Shown here in pieces: positions 22,643 through 46,530 of a stretch of 46,530 nucleotides of DNA. Positions within the stretch are counted from its first letter, which is position 1. Each line of letters begins with the position of its first letter. Below the pieces are notes generated by a model. It was not told the DNA's origin, did no database searches, and was given only the letters and a program-made list of their open reading frames with translations. Source of the stretch: Chloroflexota bacterium (GTDB lineage Bacteria > Chloroflexota > Dehalococcoidia > Lucifugimonadales > UBA2985); assembly GCA_002717805.1 (NCBI GenBank), contig PBBS01000018.1, positions 47,962 to 94,491 of the forward strand. Direction: 5' to 3'. The position numbers and the translations under genes were made by a program.

Positions 22643-24034
22643 TTGAAGATTTCCCAAGTTGACGAAAGTCAGAACCAAGCAGTTTTGAATATAGAGGTCG
22701 AACCAGAGGAACTGGAAGAGGAATTACAACGCGTATATCGTAGAGTAGTTACTCGTATTAACATACCTGGTTTTAGAAAAGGTAAAGCCTCTAGGGATGT
22801 AGTAGAGAGGTTTGTAGGGCGCGATGCGTTGATAGAGGACGCCTTGGAGAATTTAGTGCCTAATATGACTTCTAAAGCTATGCAAGAAAAGGAATTAGAT
22901 GTAGTCGCGACGCCCAGGGTTCAAGTTACTCAACGTGATCCAGTTGTAATAGAGGCTACCTATGCACTTAGGCCGACAGTTAAATTAGGTGATTACAAAA
23001 GCCTTAAACTGGAACAAGAACAGATTGAAGTAACAGATGAACAAGTTGACGATCTAGTTGAGACGGTACGCCAACAAATGGGTACTTGGGAACCTATAGA
23101 ACGGGCGGTCAGTTTTAATGATATGGTTACTATAGATGTTCAAGGAATCGTTGACGGAGAGGTTAACGTCGACGAGACAGGTATAGATTACGTACTAGTA
23201 GCAGAATCTATTAGCCCACTACCTGGTTTCTCCGAGGAAATAGCTGGTTGTAATCCCGGACAAGACAAGAAATTCACTCTCCCATTCCCAGATGATTATC
23301 CGGATACAAACATGGTTGGCAAGGAGTGTGAATTCACAGTCTTGATTCAAGAAGCTAAGGAGAGAAAAGTTCCTGCATTAGATGATGATTTTGTGAAAAC
23401 TATAAATATGGGTGTCGAGACATATGATGAGCTCAGGACTCAATTCCGAGAGGACTTACTTCTTCAGAATCAAAATGCAGCTGATCAACGGTTCGAAGAT
23501 TTGGTTATAAAAGCAGTCATAGAAGAGGCAGACTTAGAATTACCTGAAATACTTATAGATGAGGAAATACACCACATACTTGGAGAACAGGAAGAGGCTT
23601 TGCGTAGGCAGCAACTTAGCATGGATTCCTACTTGAGTACAATAGGGAAAACTCCTGAAGATTTGCACGAAGAGGCGAGGCTGCCAGCTATAGAGAAAAT
23701 CAAGCGCACCTTGGTACTAAGGCAAATGGCAGAGGATGAAAGCATAGAAGTTACAAACGAGGAAATCGAAACTGAGATAGATACTGTTATGCAATTTCAA
23801 GGTGCAATAGCAGGTGACAATTCGTTTGGCCAGTATATTAATTCCGAAGAGGGTAGGCGCTCCGTTCAGAACGTATTGAAGAATAGAAAAACTATCCAGA
23901 TGTTAGTCGATATAGCTAAGGTTTCATCTGGGAGTTCGGCAAGTAAGCCTGCAAAGAAGGCAACTGCAAAGAAGGCAACTGCAAAGAAGACAACTGCAAA
24001 GAAGACAACTGCAAAGAAGACAACAAAAAAATAG
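22643..24034 (+). CDS. tig: Trigger factor
   Basis: This is the ribosome-bound chaperone and prolyl isomerase meeting nascent chains. Residues ~1-115 are the ribosome-binding domain with the signature INIPGFRKGKASRDVV; ~150-245 form the FKBP-type isomerase domain (NDMVTIDVQGIVDGE, FTLPFPDDYPD); the rest is the helical chaperone domain. The last ~30 residues are a Lys/Ala/Thr tail (repeated T-A-K-K-A/T) encoded by 15-bp DNA repeats. It starts at TTG 22643, 7 nt after AGGAG. It is followed by clpP after 15 nt, the common tig-clpP-clpX order linking folding and proteolysis. Confidence 0.95.
   Translation: MKISQVDESQNQAVLNIEVEPEELEEELQRVYRRVVTRINIPGFRKGKASRDVVERFVGRDALIEDALENLVPNMTSKAMQEKELDVVATPRVQVTQRDPVVIEATYALRPTVKLGDYKSLKLEQEQIEVTDEQVDDLVETVRQQMGTWEPIERAVSFNDMVTIDVQGIVDGEVNVDETGIDYVLVAESISPLPGFSEEIAGCNPGQDKKFTLPFPDDYPDTNMVGKECEFTVLIQEAKERKVPALDDDFVKTINMGVETYDELRTQFREDLLLQNQNAADQRFEDLVIKAVIEEADLELPEILIDEEIHHILGEQEEALRRQQLSMDSYLSTIGKTPEDLHEEARLPAIEKIKRTLVLRQMAEDESIEVTNEEIETEIDTVMQFQGAIAGDNSFGQYINSEEGRRSVQNVLKNRKTIQMLVDIAKVSSGSSASKPAKKATAKKATAKKTTAKKTTAKKTTKK
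23951..24025 (+). repeat. Five tandem 15-bp repeats encoding the trigger-factor tail
   Basis: Five copies of GCAAAGAAGRCAACT run head to tail (23951, 23966, 23981, 23996, 24011). Two have G and three have A at the tenth position, and the last copy ends in A. They keep the reading frame and encode AKK(A/T)T units, so copy number can change without frameshift. Confidence 0.9.
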
Positions 24035-31141: not shown

Positions 31142-32119
31142 TTAAGTTGAAGCACGCGGGTGTGCTTTCTCGTATATCTTGCGTGACTGGCTAAGGCTAA
31201 CATGTGTATATATTTGAGTAGTTGTCGGAGAGGAATGACCAAGTAACTCCTGCACGACCCTAAGATCAGCCCCTCCGTCTAATAGATGTGTGGCAAAACT
31301 ATGCCTCAACATATGCGGATGTACTCTGCTATTGTTCGTCGATAGTCCGTATTTTCTGACCATGGATTGGATACTTCTTTTAGAAAGCTGGTACCCGAAT
31401 TTATTCAGGAATAAGGCTTTGATCTTCGACACAGATGCTAGCAGTGGTCTAGATTCTTTGAGGTAAACCTCTAAAGCCTGGCGCCCGGGCTCGCCCATTA
31501 TTACATCTCTTTGTTTGGCTCCCTTGCCTATAACTCTTAACGTTCGATGTTTGTTTTTTAAATCCTCTATTTTTAGCGAACATAGTTCACTAATCCTCAA
31601 TCCTGTCGCATACAGTAATTCAAGTATGGCTAAATCCCTGTATTGTATGGCGCTATTCAGGTCTGTCGCAGAAGGCTTCCTAATTTTTACTGATTGTAAT
31701 AATGCGGATACTTCAACTTGATCAAGCGTTCTAGGTAGTTTTCTTTCTGTTTTTGGGATCAGTGTTCGAGATTGCCTACTACCCTTTTTCCATAGAGAAT
31801 TTGGTGCTATCCTACCTTCCTTTGTAAGGTATCTAAAAAATGAACGTAAAGCCACCATGAGGCGGTTTATACTTGTCCTTTCATGACCAACTTTAGAAGA
31901 CTTTGTTGTGGGTTTGGTTTTTCTTCCTGACATTAGCCATGACACATATGCCCTTATCACTATACGATTTATTTCGTCTATTGAGTTAATGCTTTCGTTC
32001 GAGAGAAACTCTGTGAATGGTTTTAAGTCACTTAAGTAATTGCGTACAGTATGCACTGAGAGGTTTCGTTCTAAAGTGAGATGTACCCGATAATCCGCCA
32101 GGTGGTCTTTGATATTCAT
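31142..32119 (-). CDS. xerC: Site-specific tyrosine recombinase, XerC/XerD type
   Basis: Xer recombinases resolve chromosome dimers at dif. The N-terminal SAM-like DNA-binding domain is at ~1-105. The catalytic domain has all active residues: R175 (ATGLRISELC), K199 (VIGKGAKQRD), H269 and R272 (HPHMLRHSFATHLL), H295 (LGHSSPTTTQ) and Y304 (IYTHVS). The 325-aa length is slightly long because of a basic insert near residues 63-85 (GRKTKPTTKSSK). Its place inside a housekeeping run, next to topA as in many Gram-positive genomes, supports a chromosomal Xer rather than a phage integrase. C versus D type is not resolved. Confidence 0.9.
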   Translation of the reverse strand: MNIKDHLADYRVHLTLERNLSVHTVRNYLSDLKPFTEFLSNESINSIDEINRIVIRAYVSWLMSGRKTKPTTKSSKVGHERTSINRLMVALRSFFRYLTKEGRIAPNSLWKKGSRQSRTLIPKTERKLPRTLDQVEVSALLQSVKIRKPSATDLNSAIQYRDLAILELLYATGLRISELCSLKIEDLKNKHRTLRVIGKGAKQRDVIMGEPGRQALEVYLKESRPLLASVSKIKALFLNKFGYQLSKRSIQSMVRKYGLSTNNSRVHPHMLRHSFATHLLDGGADLRVVQELLGHSSPTTTQIYTHVSLSQSRKIYEKAHPRAST

Positions 32120-42226: not shown

Positions 42227-44734
42227 ATGAGTCAAGACGGATTCTCCCAACCCCTATCTGGCATCCGTGTAATAGATCTTACACAAGGAATACCTGGTTC
42301 TTATTGTACTAAGGTTCTTGCCGATTTTGGGGCAGATGTCATTAAAGTAGAGAAACCAGGAGTAGGTGACTACACTCGCCGTATGGGTCCATTTCCGAAC
42401 GACATAAATGATCAGGAGAAGAGTGGTCTATTTTTATACCTTAATACTAACAAGCGGAGCATCACTTTAGATTTGAAAAATCCATCAGATATTGAGGTTG
42501 TGAAAGATTTAGTAGCATCTGCTGACGTCTTTGTGGAGAATTTCAAACCTGGGGTTATAGATAAACTAGGTTTAGGTTACGACATATTAAAGCGTATAAA
42601 TTCTGGATTAATCATGACGTCAATATCCAACTTTGGCCAAACTGGGCCATATAAGGATTATGTTGCATCTGAGTTGGTGCTATATGCGATGGGAGGTAGG
42701 ATGGGCGCGTCCGGCTTGCCAGACAGATATCCTGTAAAGCTTGGTGGTAATCATGTTCAGTATCAGGCTGGTAATAACGCTGCTATGGCCACAATATTTG
42801 CTTGGTATGGCAGAGAGTACAACGGTTTAGGCGGACAGCAAGTTGATGTCTCTATACTTGAAACACAATTAGCATCTATAAATGGGCGACTTACAAGCCT
42901 GTTAGGGTATCAATACAATGGAGAGAGAGGCAGAAGATTAGGGCCGGCTAGGATAGGATATCCCAATGGCCATTTCCCGTGCATAGATGGGACTATATCT
43001 GTGTCTGGTGCTGGTCAGAGATTCCCATTAACGGCTGCCGCTTTAGGCATGCCAGAGTTAGTTGAAGATCCAAGATATGGTATAACAACGGGCACTCAGG
43101 ATATGGATTATAAAGATGAATTTATGGAAACCATATGGTTGCCTTGGCTGGCAGAGAGAACGAAACATGAGGCAGTAAAGGAATGCCAAGAGCATGGCTT
43201 GTTGATATCTGCTAACAGCAGGATTGACGAGGTGATGGATGACAATCCTCAGTTGGATGCGAGGGGTTATTTTTCCAGTATAGAGCACCCAGTGGCAGGT
43301 AATCTTCGTTATCCTGGATCTCAGATATACAACGATAGTGGTTGGTGGCAATTAAATAGACCTGCTCCAACCTTGGGGCAACATAATGAAGAGATACTTG
43401 CTGAGATTGGCACGATTACTAGATCTAATGAATCAACCGATAAAGTTGGATCTACCAAACGGCCATTGGAGGGTATCAGGGTTATAGACATGGCAGTTAT
43501 ATTTGCAGGGCCTTACGGTACCATGTTCCTTGGTGACATGGGAGCAGAGATTATACGAATTGAAACCTTGAATGGCCTTCCGGCCACTAGCCGGGGTCAA
43601 TTTGCAAGACCAAGTAAAGAATCACAGATGAAAGCCGCTACGTCTCCATATCCAGATAGAGACCCAGGTCCTAGACCATGGAACAGAGCATCTAATTTCA
43701 ACGCTCATGCAAGAAATAAACATGGTATTACGATGGATATGAATAAGGACGAAGCTCGGTCGGCGTTTAGGAAGCTTGTAGAGGTTAGTGACATATTTAT
43801 AGAAAATAATGCCACAGGCTCCATGAAGCGGTTAGGTATATCGTATGATGTTATCAGTCAGTGGAATCCCAGGTTGATAATGATATCGGCGACGGGATTT
43901 GGCCAAACAGGACCATGGAATTACTATAGGGGGATTGGCACTCAGTTCGAAGCATCTGTAGGTCATGCTACGGTCACAGGTTACCCAGATATGGGTACTG
44001 ATGGTGCTCCTGGATCTGTTGCTGCTGACGCCGCATGCGGCGTAACGATAGGTTTGGTTGCTACTATGGCCCTTCATCAGAGAGAAAAAACAGGCAAAGG
44101 TGTTTATATAGATATATCTCTTGGAGAGAACTTCTTGCCTCAGTTGGGTGAGTTGTATATGGATTATTCTATTAATGGCAGGGTTGCAGGACCTATAGGG
44201 AACCGTGATCATTTGGGCAATCTGGTTCAGGGAGTATACCAATGCGCAGGTGATGACGAGTGGATAGCCATATCTATTGCCAATATTGATGAGTGGAATA
44301 CTCTTACCAATATTATGAAAATCGATAATAAGTTTGGTAGCATGCAGGATTTGATGGCCAATCACGATACGGTGGATACTCTTATCTCCGAATGGACCTC
44401 GAGTCAGGATCCAGTCAAGCTATTTCATGAGTTGCAGTCCAAAGGCATTATGGCAGGACACATAATGCATGAAGAGCATGTTTTTAGTGATCCACAGATC
44501 AAGGAACGTGACTTTTTTGTTCAAATAACACATCCAGAGGCTGGCACACATTTATATCCTAGTACTACATATAAAATGAGCAAGGTTGCATTCGAAGTAC
44601 GAAAACCTCCGATGAGGTTAGGCGAGGATAATGATTATGTTTACCGTGAAATAATTAAGCTCACTGAGGACGAATACCAATACCTAAAAGATCAGGGTCA
44701 TATTGGCATGGATTACGCAGCTCATGTTAGGTAG
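42227..44734 (+). CDS. Double-domain CaiB/BaiF (family III) CoA-transferase
   Basis: Family III enzymes move CoA between carboxylic acids. This 835-aa chain holds two complete modules in tandem. Module 1 (~5-400) has PLSGIRVIDLTQGIPGSYCT, ADFGADVIKVEKPGVGDYTR, FGQTGPYKDY and GGQQVDVSILETQL. Module 2 (~412-835) has RPLEGIRVIDMAVIFAGPYG, DMGAEIIRIETLNG, FGQTGPWNYY and GVYIDISLGENF. Both have an acidic residue (Glu) after V/I-D-V/I-S at the catalytic position (usually Asp). Family III enzymes work as interlocked dimers, so the fusion may make an internal heterodimer. GGAGGG precedes ATG 42227. Substrate acids are unknown. Confidence 0.9.
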   Translation: MSQDGFSQPLSGIRVIDLTQGIPGSYCTKVLADFGADVIKVEKPGVGDYTRRMGPFPNDINDQEKSGLFLYLNTNKRSITLDLKNPSDIEVVKDLVASADVFVENFKPGVIDKLGLGYDILKRINSGLIMTSISNFGQTGPYKDYVASELVLYAMGGRMGASGLPDRYPVKLGGNHVQYQAGNNAAMATIFAWYGREYNGLGGQQVDVSILETQLASINGRLTSLLGYQYNGERGRRLGPARIGYPNGHFPCIDGTISVSGAGQRFPLTAAALGMPELVEDPRYGITTGTQDMDYKDEFMETIWLPWLAERTKHEAVKECQEHGLLISANSRIDEVMDDNPQLDARGYFSSIEHPVAGNLRYPGSQIYNDSGWWQLNRPAPTLGQHNEEILAEIGTITRSNESTDKVGSTKRPLEGIRVIDMAVIFAGPYGTMFLGDMGAEIIRIETLNGLPATSRGQFARPSKESQMKAATSPYPDRDPGPRPWNRASNFNAHARNKHGITMDMNKDEARSAFRKLVEVSDIFIENNATGSMKRLGISYDVISQWNPRLIMISATGFGQTGPWNYYRGIGTQFEASVGHATVTGYPDMGTDGAPGSVAADAACGVTIGLVATMALHQREKTGKGVYIDISLGENFLPQLGELYMDYSINGRVAGPIGNRDHLGNLVQGVYQCAGDDEWIAISIANIDEWNTLTNIMKIDNKFGSMQDLMANHDTVDTLISEWTSSQDPVKLFHELQSKGIMAGHIMHEEHVFSDPQIKERDFFVQITHPEAGTHLYPSTTYKMSKVAFEVRKPPMRLGEDNDYVYREIIKLTEDEYQYLKDQGHIGMDYAAHVR

Positions 44735-44778: not shown

Positions 44779-44853
44779 CGGGGTGTGGCGCAGGGGGAGC
44801 GCGCCTGTTTTGGGAACAGGAGGTCGAAGGTTCAAATCCTTTCACCCCGACCA
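44779..44853 (+). tRNA. tRNA-Pro (TGG)
   Basis: Acceptor CGGGGTG (44779-44785) pairs fully with CACCCCG (44843-44849). Anticodon stem CCTGT/ACAGG encloses TTTGGGA with anticodon TGG (44811-44813). The T arm GAAGG-TTCAAAT-CCTTT is regular, with discriminator A and an encoded CCA at 44851-44853. Confidence 0.97.
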
Positions 44854-44869
44854 TTTTCTAGGCACAAAG

Positions 44870-44904
44870 AGAGACCTTTCACTAAGTTGAGAGGTCTCTT
44901 TTTT
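44870..44904 (+). terminator. Rho-independent terminator after tRNA-Pro
   Basis: AGAGACCT (44870-44877) pairs with AGGTCTCT (44892-44899), extended inward by several weaker pairs, and is followed by a T-run to 44904. It ends the one-gene tRNA-Pro unit. Confidence 0.85.
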
Positions 44905-44909
44905 ATCTA

Positions 44910-44932
44910 GGACACTAATATGGACACTAATA
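44910..44932. repeat. Two tandem copies of GGACACTAATA
   Basis: GGACACTAATAT (44910-44921) is followed at once by GGACACTAATA (44922-44932), directly after the tRNA-Pro terminator. Short direct repeats here could be protein-binding arms; their role is unknown. Confidence 0.6.
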
Positions 44933-44974
44933 GGTGGTTGGTTGGGCTAACTATTGGGTTAACTAAGTGATACC

Positions 44975-45046
44975 GACTTCCCTTCTGTCGGGGTATATCT
45001 ATAGTACTAAGGTATGCGAAAAATTATCGCTTTGGGTCAGGAAATA
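44975..45046. repeat. Left copy of ~72-bp imperfect direct repeat
   Basis: It matches 46362-46432 in the same orientation. Fully identical blocks are GACTTCCCTT at the start, 23 bp at 44993-45015 (ending TAGTACTAAGGTAT) and GGGTCAGGAAATA at the end; between them are scattered changes and one-base indels. The two copies bracket the small-gene block. Confidence 0.85.
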
Positions 45047-45060
45047 AGTAGTCTCGTCTG

Positions 45061-45462
45061 CTATCGCACTATGTCAAACTTTTCTATAGCAGGGTCGCCA
45101 GCATAAGGACATTTAAGTTCCCACATTAGGAAATTAATGTAGTACCAGAGACCTTCATCCACCTCTATTCTTTCTTTAGTCAACAGGGAAATACCTCCTT
45201 TAGGCCATTGTATTTCACGTTTAGATCGAACATCATCAAATGCCCCAAACGCACTCGCACCTGCCGCATCTCTCGTCATCTCTAGGTTGTCGCAATCTTT
45301 GTTAGCTACCCATTCATCAATTCTAGATTCTAGGCCTTGTTGCCGAGGACTGCCCTTATCCCAGTCGACTAACTCATCCAGTCTACGAGTCTCCCTTTCA
45401 CAAGCAGTGGAGGCTAATAGTAATAACAAGAATATTCCAATGACAAAGTAAGATTTCCTCAT
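45061..45462 (-). CDS. Hypothetical small lipoprotein
   Basis: 133 aa with a clear lipoprotein signal: MRKSYFVIGIFLLLLLASTA then C21 (lipobox LASTAC). The mature part is charged (ERETRRLDELVDWDKG), has two more cysteines (KDCDNLEM and LKCPYAGD) and an aromatic stretch GLWYYINFLMWELKCPY. I recognise no family. The ribosome site before ATG 45462 is weak. It is the last gene of the minus-strand small-gene block. Confidence 0.65.
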   Translation of the reverse strand: MRKSYFVIGIFLLLLLASTACERETRRLDELVDWDKGSPRQQGLESRIDEWVANKDCDNLEMTRDAAGASAFGAFDDVRSKREIQWPKGGISLLTKERIEVDEGLWYYINFLMWELKCPYAGDPAIEKFDIVR

Positions 45463-45540
45463 AGCACTTACCGTTGCCTACGTTGCATTGCCAGACCGTA
45501 GATAAGGTGGAATCTGGAATCTCTAAGTATGCTTAGTAGT

Positions 45541-45624
45541 TTATTTTTCATCCTCAGGCTCGTGATTTACAACTTCGTTGTACGTCCCGCAGGTTTTACA
45601 CTTTATCCCTGCTCTTCTATCTTT
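45541..45624 (-). other. Open frame encoding a CxxC tail, +1 relative to the 59-aa gene
   Basis: Directly after the 59-aa gene, a frame with no start codon of its own reads K-D-R-R-A-G-I-K-C-K-T-C-G-T-Y-N-E-V-V-N and then HEPEDEK to a stop. It looks protein-like (a CxxC pair followed by an acidic end). Losing one A from the A5 run near the stop of the 59-aa gene would join the two frames into a protein of about 84 aa. Confidence 0.45.
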
Positions 45625-45796
45625 TTACTTTATTCCACACTATTCTAGCAGACCCTATAACTCCGATTATAACGGAAGACCATGCTACAATTTGAATAGT
45701 TAGTATGTCTTCTCCAAATCCATGTCTAGAGAGGTCAGCCACAAGTCCACCAAACAAAATCAAAGGTATTGGGAAATAGTCTTTTAATATCGTCAT
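45617..45796 (-). CDS. Putative 59-aa two-helix membrane protein
   Basis: The frame reads MTILKDYFPIPLILFGGLVA, a short polar loop (DLSRHGFGEDILT), then IQIVAWSSVIIGVIGSARIV and WNKVKR. Two hydrophobic segments with a basic end suggest a hairpin in the membrane. AAAGGAGGAAG lies a proper distance before ATG 45796, one of the strongest ribosome sites in the window, which argues for real translation. It may continue into the CxxC tail at 45541-45624 by frameshift or after correction of a homopolymer error. Family unknown. Confidence 0.65.
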   Translation of the reverse strand: MTILKDYFPIPLILFGGLVADLSRHGFGEDILTIQIVAWSSVIIGVIGSARIVWNKVKR

Positions 45797-45835
45797 ATAA
45801 TATCTTCCTCCTTTATTATTTGTATGTCTATCCCT

Positions 45836-45946
45836 TTATCTGCTAACAATTCCGACTATCAACGCTACCACTTGAAAGGCTCCCCATATCAAAAAAGTGG
45901 GAATAAGAATTTCCTTCCAAGTACGTTTCTTCTTAATCGTTTTCAT
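45836..45946 (-). CDS. Putative 36-aa single-helix membrane protein
   Basis: MKTIKKKRTWKEILIPTFLI is followed by WGAFQVVALIVGIVSR: a strongly basic N-terminus and one hydrophobic helix. It lies between the 106-aa and 59-aa genes with short gaps (7 and 39 nt) on the same strand, which supports translation despite the lack of a clear ribosome site. Confidence 0.5.
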   Translation of the reverse strand: MKTIKKKRTWKEILIPTFLIWGAFQVVALIVGIVSR

Positions 45947-45953
45947 TATTTGG

Positions 45954-46274
45954 TTAGTCTTCTATAATATTTTCTGGGTCAAAACCTTGGGGATCTGGGT
46001 AGATGCAATCGCGATCTGACTCGTCTGGGTGATACCCTAAAAGGCCAGCCGCCTTTTGGAAAAGTTCCCTTTTCTTGTCTAGGTCCGATTGCGGCGGGGC
46101 CAAATCCGTTTTCCCTTTTGACCTTACCCACTCCACTATGGCTTTCAACTCTGGGTCATCTGGGTTCAAACCTAAATGACCTGCAGCGTTCTGGAACAAT
46201 GCCCGCTTTTTCTCTTGGCTGTCAGAGTCTGCCGCATCGGCTTTCTTTGAAGACTTCTTTTTAGGATTAGCCAT
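45954..46274 (-). CDS. Hypothetical protein with internal duplication (AAG-x-LG repeat)
   Basis: This 106-aa soluble protein has a Lys/Ser-rich start (MANPKKKSSKKADAADSDSQ) and two copies of one motif: KKRALFQNAAGHLGLNPDD (22-40) and KKRELFQKAAGLLGYHPDE (67-85), joined by a helix (ELKAIVEWVRSKG) and a Pro-rich stretch. The end is acidic (DPQGFDPENIIED). The repeat looks like a short helix-loop unit of about 19 residues. I recognise no family. GGAG precedes ATG 46274 and an extended -10 promoter lies at 46303-46311. It heads the minus-strand small-gene block. Confidence 0.7.
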   Translation of the reverse strand: MANPKKKSSKKADAADSDSQEKKRALFQNAAGHLGLNPDDPELKAIVEWVRSKGKTDLAPPQSDLDKKRELFQKAAGLLGYHPDESDRDCIYPDPQGFDPENIIED

Positions 46275-46302
46275 TACTTTAATCTCCGCATTTGGTTACC
46301 TA

Positions 46303-46311
46303 ATAATACCA
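46303..46311 (-). promoter_or_regulatory. Extended -10 promoter of the small-gene block
   Basis: The minus strand reads TGGTATTAT (TGn plus TATTAT) about 30 nt upstream of the 106-aa gene; no good -35 box. Confidence 0.4.
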
Positions 46312-46361
46312 TGTTAGCCAGAACCTACTATTTTCATGCCTCGCCTTCGGCTAACGACTTT

Positions 46362-46432
46362 GACTTCCCTTCCAAGGACGTATATCTATAGTACTAAGGT
46401 ATTTAGAAAATATCGCTTGGGGTCAGGAAATA
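46362..46432. repeat. Right copy of ~72-bp imperfect direct repeat
   Basis: Same-orientation partner of 44975-45046, including the identical 23-bp core at 46380-46402 and GGGTCAGGAAATA at 46420-46432. The distance between the copies is 1387 bp. Confidence 0.85.
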
Positions 46433-46473
46433 TAAATATATGGTAAAGTAAATCTATTAACTAAAATTAAAAA

Positions 46474-46530
46474 ATGTCAAAAACAAATTCAAATACTGAA
46501 TATTATATTCATCCTGAGGGATGGAAATTT
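46474..46530 (+). CDS. Start of an unknown gene, cut by window edge
   Basis: An ATG at 46474 opens a frame MSKTNSNTEYYIHPEGWKF that runs off the window. There is no clear ribosome site in the A-rich leader, and 19 residues are too few to assign a family. Confidence 0.4.
   Translation, partial: MSKTNSNTEYYIHPEGWKF

Follow-up and report, generated by a model that had tools for sequence, protein, structure and literature searches.

The window analysed here is a stretch of 46,530 nt from a Chloroflexota genome, and its last part carries a tRNA gene followed by a structured flank and a group of small genes on the opposite strand:

44779..44853, plus strand: tRNA-Pro(UGG) (ARAGORN; Rfam RF00005, 66.9 bits), the putative integration target
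44859..44868, plus strand: trailer motif TAGGCACAAA, recognised by its recurrence behind tRNA genes and fragments
44870..44904, plus strand: intrinsic tRNA-Pro terminator hairpin (AGAGACC...GGTCTCTTTTTT), read from the sequence and equally placed at other sites
44910..44932, plus strand: 12-bp-period doublet GGACACTAATAT x2, putative integrase arm-type sites whose geometry matches the integrase sites of a relative (G004)
44973..45046, plus strand: 72-bp repeat copy 1, putative island-end module (sequence comparison)
45061..45462, minus strand: putative lipoprotein of 133 aa, cargo (ORF; signal peptide with lipobox-like STAC)
45617..45796, minus strand: putative membrane miniprotein of 59 aa, cargo (ORF)
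45836..45946, minus strand: putative membrane miniprotein of 36 aa, cargo (ORF)
45954..46274, minus strand: charged protein of 106 aa, cargo (ORF)
46362..46435, plus strand: 72-bp repeat copy 2, internal and not adjoining any tRNA fragment (sequence comparison)
46474..46530, plus strand: start of an ORF (MSKTNSNTEYYIHPEGWKF...), read from the sequence and cut by the contig end

A sequence-only reading of this DNA had described tRNA-Pro and its terminator followed by four minus-strand small genes (106, 36, 59 and 133 aa) of no known family, and both statements hold, the first by ARAGORN and the ORF list, the second by Pfam and PHROGs searches that gave a convincing match for none of the four proteins. 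PADLOC gave no match for the three small proteins tested, the 106-aa protein matched no solved structure and was absent from 249 genomes of the order, and neither it, nor the 133-aa protein, nor a WCGT-motif protein encoded elsewhere had a match in the viral contig collection. Within the same genome, a paralog of the 133-aa lipoprotein lies on contig C1 (L066 about 910-1226; 57 of 127 columns identical, 45% aa), and the 106-aa protein is 48% identical over 89 columns to a 118-aa protein of a tRNA-Gly island (L005:12997-13353); these two have the N-terminal part and one further block in common, and their DNA is 89-99% identical in two blocks. The block has normal composition, with 42.1% G+C against a window mean of 41.6 +/- 2.0%, a point against an island. 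Upstream of tRNA-Pro the window encodes an 835-aa protein with two CoA-transferase-like halves (42227-44734), to which three other proteins of the genome are closely paralogous (60-67%), and tandem 15-bp repeats (CTGCAAAGAAGGCAA) at 23949-24024 are probably within a coding region. The orthologous tRNA-Pro neighbourhood was sought through the CoA-transferase gene, and the relatives proved too distant.

Behind tRNA-Pro(UGG) the order is trailer TAGGCACAAA, terminator and doublet GGACACTAATAT x2 at +56; an intact gene with trailer, terminator and arm doublet is what a tRNA regenerated by a tRNA-targeted island would look like. The genome DNA read in detail comprised the stretches around tRNAs and the contig ends, and here the same layout recurs behind tRNA-Gly(GCC), behind a displaced tRNA-Gly 3′ fragment and behind tRNA-Arg(UCU), as well as behind tRNA-Gly(GCC) in a sister SAR202 genome (G001). 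tRNA-Gly(gcc), tRNA-Pro(tgg) and tRNA-Arg(tct) each have a period-12 doublet of distinct sequence at +55 to +57; among the tRNA flanks read in this genome, no other carries one. In total, 14 tandem doublets were counted in 180 kb, half of them (7/14) with period 12, and six of these seven lie at tRNA junctions; the doublet frequency in a random 80-bp stretch is 0.0008. Of 12 occurrences of the trailer motif TAGGCAC[AG]AA in 180 kb, eight immediately follow a tRNA gene or tRNA 3′ fragment and one lies in the conserved right end at C3; the motif is also present in G001 and in an integrase-bearing element of G004, a genome of the same family. The tRNA-Arg(tct) gene, with its own doublet ATATGCCAACCG x2, lies on C10 in the opposite direction to the tRNA-Gly array, and the two island sites face each other with type I restriction-modification genes between them (L005 13423-18001 to L089 1-1865). 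The genome also holds three copies of tRNA-Arg(ccg) with nearly identical 3′ flanks (L030 and L031, at 8372 and 12808 of C6; L038, at 47161 of C13), the two C6 copies being oppositely directed and 4.4 kb apart on one contig.

The strongest evidence on the nature of the doublets comes from G004, where the layout runs straight into tyrosine integrase genes, and for this reason we regard the doublets as probable integrase arm sites. One G004 site reads tRNA end, TTTAGGCACGAAAT, terminator, AAATGGTCACGA doublet and integrase, and two more read TTTAGCTACAAAA, terminator, TGTACCAA doublet and integrase; the integrases that were scanned carry PF00589 with PF14659. In G001, TAGTCCTACAAT x2 stands at +56 behind tRNA-Gly(gcc), then comes one MrcB_N/NOV_C gene and, about 1.2 kb on, GTCCTACA x2, at which the contig ends; the order folC, tRNA-Phe, tRNA-Gly is common to G001 and C10. 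No such doublet was present behind the tRNA in G003 and the other tRNA-Gly loci examined. At the window, C10 and G001 tRNA-Gly sites there is no integrase gene, and no dedicated integrase is assembled in this genome, estimated as 87% complete, which has two tyrosine recombinases, both XerC/XerD-like; this, too, speaks against an island. The tyrosine recombinase of the window (31142-32119) was considered as the island integrase and dismissed, being XerC-like and adjoining topA. The tRNA-Pro island itself is incompletely assembled, and for it the lack of an integrase is provisional.

Displaced 3′ halves, each beginning in the anticodon loop, were found for tRNA-Gly (C10:51649 and C3:875-943, 97%), for a tRNA-Ala-like sequence at the very start of C16, and for tRNA-Pro in decayed form. 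tRNA-Pro is the inferred target, and the island would have re-supplied its 3′ half, from about 44809 (anticodon loop TTTGGGAACAG) onward, in keeping with the displaced halves at other loci. The right ends preceding the C10 and C3 tRNA-Gly halves are about 92% identical over the 127 bp adjoining the core, and across the aligned 250 bp they differ mainly in the arm sites, GGTAGCACT in C10 versus GGACACACT in C3. This right-end sequence was not found in the viral contig collection, and within the order almost only its tRNA-Gly part matches outside this genome. The first C10 element is about 2.0 kb long, carries one lipoprotein gene and has arm type GGTAGCAC at both ends, keeping attL and attR without integrase or transfer genes; it was read completely and lacks an integrase. 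Together with the element of about 1.4 kb in G001 it makes two mini-islands, each with a single gene and with arm sites of matching type on either side. The C3 right end, which would be the partner of the second C10 element, sits on a different contig, a further point against an island.

For tRNA-Pro, the far end of the block lies outside the window because the window stops at the end of contig C18 (94,491 bp), 98 nt past repeat copy 2. The far end is not on C18 and the candidate fragment is on another contig, again a point against an island. This candidate, C1:3286-3376, is a decayed tRNA-Pro(UGG) 3′ fragment with its terminator (E 1e-4); that it is only 73% similar and has no recognisable arm sites likewise speaks against. 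C1 starts with the lipoprotein paralog, followed by other small genes, an amidohydrolase and then the tRNA-Pro relic, 2 kb behind the paralog. The relic is the probable far end of the tRNA-Pro island, and since C1 has both lipoprotein paralog and relic, the end of C18 and the start of C1 are plausibly two parts of one island split by an assembly gap and joined here by inference.

Several further observations were made at tRNA genes. Staphylococcal-nuclease-domain lipoproteins that are 53% identical occur on the island side of C3 (L092 3100-3852) and, in the sister genome, beside tRNA-Gly(ccc) (L137 301-855). The second of them has a WCGTxWEEKDxARIKxIL protein as its neighbour, and such a protein is also encoded in the tRNA-Gly array of C10. 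tRNA-Val(tac) is present with a 97% identical 132-nt context on C19 (L069 1-1218) and C25 (L070 6937-7055), followed by unrelated DNA, with an HNH type-IV-restriction-like gene in C19 and an MFS-like transporter in C25; the pair may represent two population variants of one tRNA site.

The same-direction repeats reported at 44975-45046 and 46362-46432 with a 23-bp identical core were recovered by alignment, with 50 nt at 80% and 26 nt at 92% (83% over 72 nt, E 7.6e-15) and the 23-nt core GTATATCTATAGTACTAAGGTAT identical in both. The genome-wide search for more copies that had been suggested along with them gave two further matches (E 3.5e-22 and 2.9e-7 in the 1.32-Mb genome), both on C10 at the tRNA-Gly locus, and the repeat is more than chance. 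It thus occurs in four places, two in the window and, on C10, one full copy and one 26-nt start. The short C10 copy lies 49 bp past the doublet that follows the intact tRNA-Gly(gcc), the full one 49 bp past the doublet that follows the displaced tRNA-Gly 3′ half, and window copy 1 lies 63 bp past its doublet. As three of the four copies sit 49-63 bp behind a doublet, the repeat belongs to the island end, and we infer an island-end module that might act as an accessory binding site, promoter or small RNA. Copy 2 of the window, the sole one away from a tRNA junction, is not accounted for by the attachment-site model and counts against it. The repeat was absent from 59 related genomes, and neither repeat nor core was found in the viral or genome contig collections as scanned, which may omit this genome and its near neighbours. 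Identity with a known RNA was rejected on the lack of an Rfam match and on the disagreement among the hairpins of the three full copies, and a promoter was rejected since promoter-like sites were not above those of shuffles. The 72-bp repeat and the CTTAAGGTA repeats of the C3 right end have CTAAGGTA in common, a weak hint that a common protein may bind both.

Taken at the level of sequence, the analysis offers the layout, the displaced 3′ halves, the arm types matched between the two ends of each of two mini-islands and a doublet layout abutting the integrase genes of a relative. We consider it probable, with good confidence, that from the middle of tRNA-Pro onward the DNA is the tRNA-proximal end (attL) of a genomic island, put in place by a tyrosine integrase with its crossover in the anticodon loop. 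The circular island would carry on one side a tRNA 3′ half, trailer motif, terminator and doublet arm sites, and on the other side arm sites, a second trailer-like motif and the core. An integrase would bind arms and core and cross over in the anticodon loop, whereupon the 3′ half of the island would restore the tRNA and the original 3′ half would be displaced to the far end; later islands would enter next to the tRNA and push the older ones away, in tandem accretion. The integrase would presumably act in trans, supplied by a helper or encoded in an unassembled part, and the four small genes would be cargo. The earlier suggestion, a small cassette exchanged at the 3′ end of a tRNA with no integrase close by, was therefore right in kind, being supported by the probable arm sites, the displaced halves and the repeat at a second tRNA island, and also by the absence of the repeat from the 59 relatives and of the 106-aa protein from the 249 genomes; its alternative, a repeated unit travelling with such cassettes, fits the 72-bp repeat best. 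It was wrong on the borders, and the doublet at 44910-44932, the trailer at 44859-44868 and the repeat at the second tRNA locus had escaped it. An empty tRNA-Pro site was not seen, the genus being represented by one genome, which likewise counts against an island.

The claim that the block is bracketed by the repeats would make them the recombination borders of a 1.4-kb cassette, and indeed two same-direction copies flank four genes and the repeat recurs in the tRNA-Gly array. That said, three copies keep a near-fixed place behind an arm doublet rather than at a junction, beyond its genes the full C10 copy has no counterpart, an empty version was not observed, and copy 2 is internal, with no tRNA fragment beside it and the contig ending 98 nt further on; the exchange point would instead be the anticodon loop, with the arm doublet between tRNA and repeat and the probable far end on another contig. 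We therefore hold repeat borders to be very unlikely. An ordinary, vertically inherited intergenic region, with the repeat as a common promoter or RNA element, would agree with the normal G+C and with the adjoining housekeeping gene and tRNA, and is scarcely credible given a repeat that is confined to tRNA islands in this genome, absent from the 59 relatives, without an Rfam match and no richer in promoter-like sites than shuffles, next to a 106-aa protein that 249 genomes of the order lack.

One rival differs on present mobility alone. A once autonomous island at this site that has lost its integrase and is now immobile, a remnant of the CIME kind, would share the attL reading, and we give it a minority chance: no integrase is assembled in a genome estimated as 87% complete, the tRNA-Pro fragment on C1 is decayed, and the repeat behind tRNA-Gly has half its length. 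Against such decay stand the arm doublets of the C10 and G001 mini-islands, which are intact and agree in type between the two ends, and the recurrence of the same cargo families at different tRNAs. The intact and type-matched arms of the mini-islands favour recent or continuing mobility.

Among known systems, the proposed island with its attL at tRNA-Pro resembles the tRNA-targeted genomic islands of tyrosine integrases as defined for Islander (PMC4383910), in that an intact tRNA is restored at one end, displaced 3′ fragments mark other ends, the terminator is carried along and arm sites adjoin the tRNA, with the integrase beside them in relatives. It departs from them in lacking an integrase at the window, C10 and G001 tRNA-Gly sites, in that some elements are only 1.4-2 kb long with one gene, and in a right end of the tRNA-Pro island that is placed provisionally. 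CIMEs are cis-mobilizable elements that have lost integration and transfer genes while attL and attR are kept (PMC5704250); attachment ends without integrase and tandem accretion at a tRNA are shared, whereas here the arm sites are intact and type-matched, cargo families recur at several tRNAs, and the genome has no sign of a parent ICE, no parent ICE or IME having been found in it. Tycheposons, tRNA-linked cargo elements of 4-200 kb from marine bacteria with the tyrosine recombinase xerD (PMC10872708), are similar in marine host (SAR202, by the sister genome), tRNA border, cargo genes and island hot spot, but the elements described here are 1.4-2 kb where complete, and the tRNA border is present without the element-borne tyrosine recombinase at the sites read. 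Islands at tRNA genes are already known, as are arm sites and remnants without an integrase (PMC4383910, PMC5704250, PMC11389934). In a limited literature search we found no description of one-gene islands with complete matched arms and arm-type switching in SAR202, and among the papers listed for SAR202 with genomic islands, tRNA and integrase, none dealt with this topic.

For genome analysis, the succession of tRNA end, trailer motif, terminator and 12-bp-period doublet at +55 to +61 offers a marker for islands without an integrase gene, and the island layout may explain why contigs break close to tRNA genes here. The ends also provide a natural series in which the arm sites have changed sequence and the remainder of the end is conserved, arm types varying (GGTAGCAC, GGACACAC, GTCCTACA and others) on a nearly identical background. 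SAR202 are abundant uncultured bacteria of the deep ocean, and restriction-type genes at the sister sites (MrcB_N, HNH, and type I by tRNA-Arg) suggest that defence genes occupy these sites. We tentatively put forward, as a conjecture of less than even standing, a pool in SAR202 bacteria of one-gene mini-islands that lack an integrase, measure about 1.4-2 kb and have complete attachment sites. The integrases of co-resident elements would mobilise them in trans, a switch of arm type would bring a cargo cassette a new integrase partner, and tRNA genes would serve as something like a dispersed integron. In this ocean SAR202 bacterium and a relative, tRNA islands of this kind can be reduced to a single cargo gene or a few, without an integrase close by, which points to a little-noticed route of gene swapping at tRNA sites.
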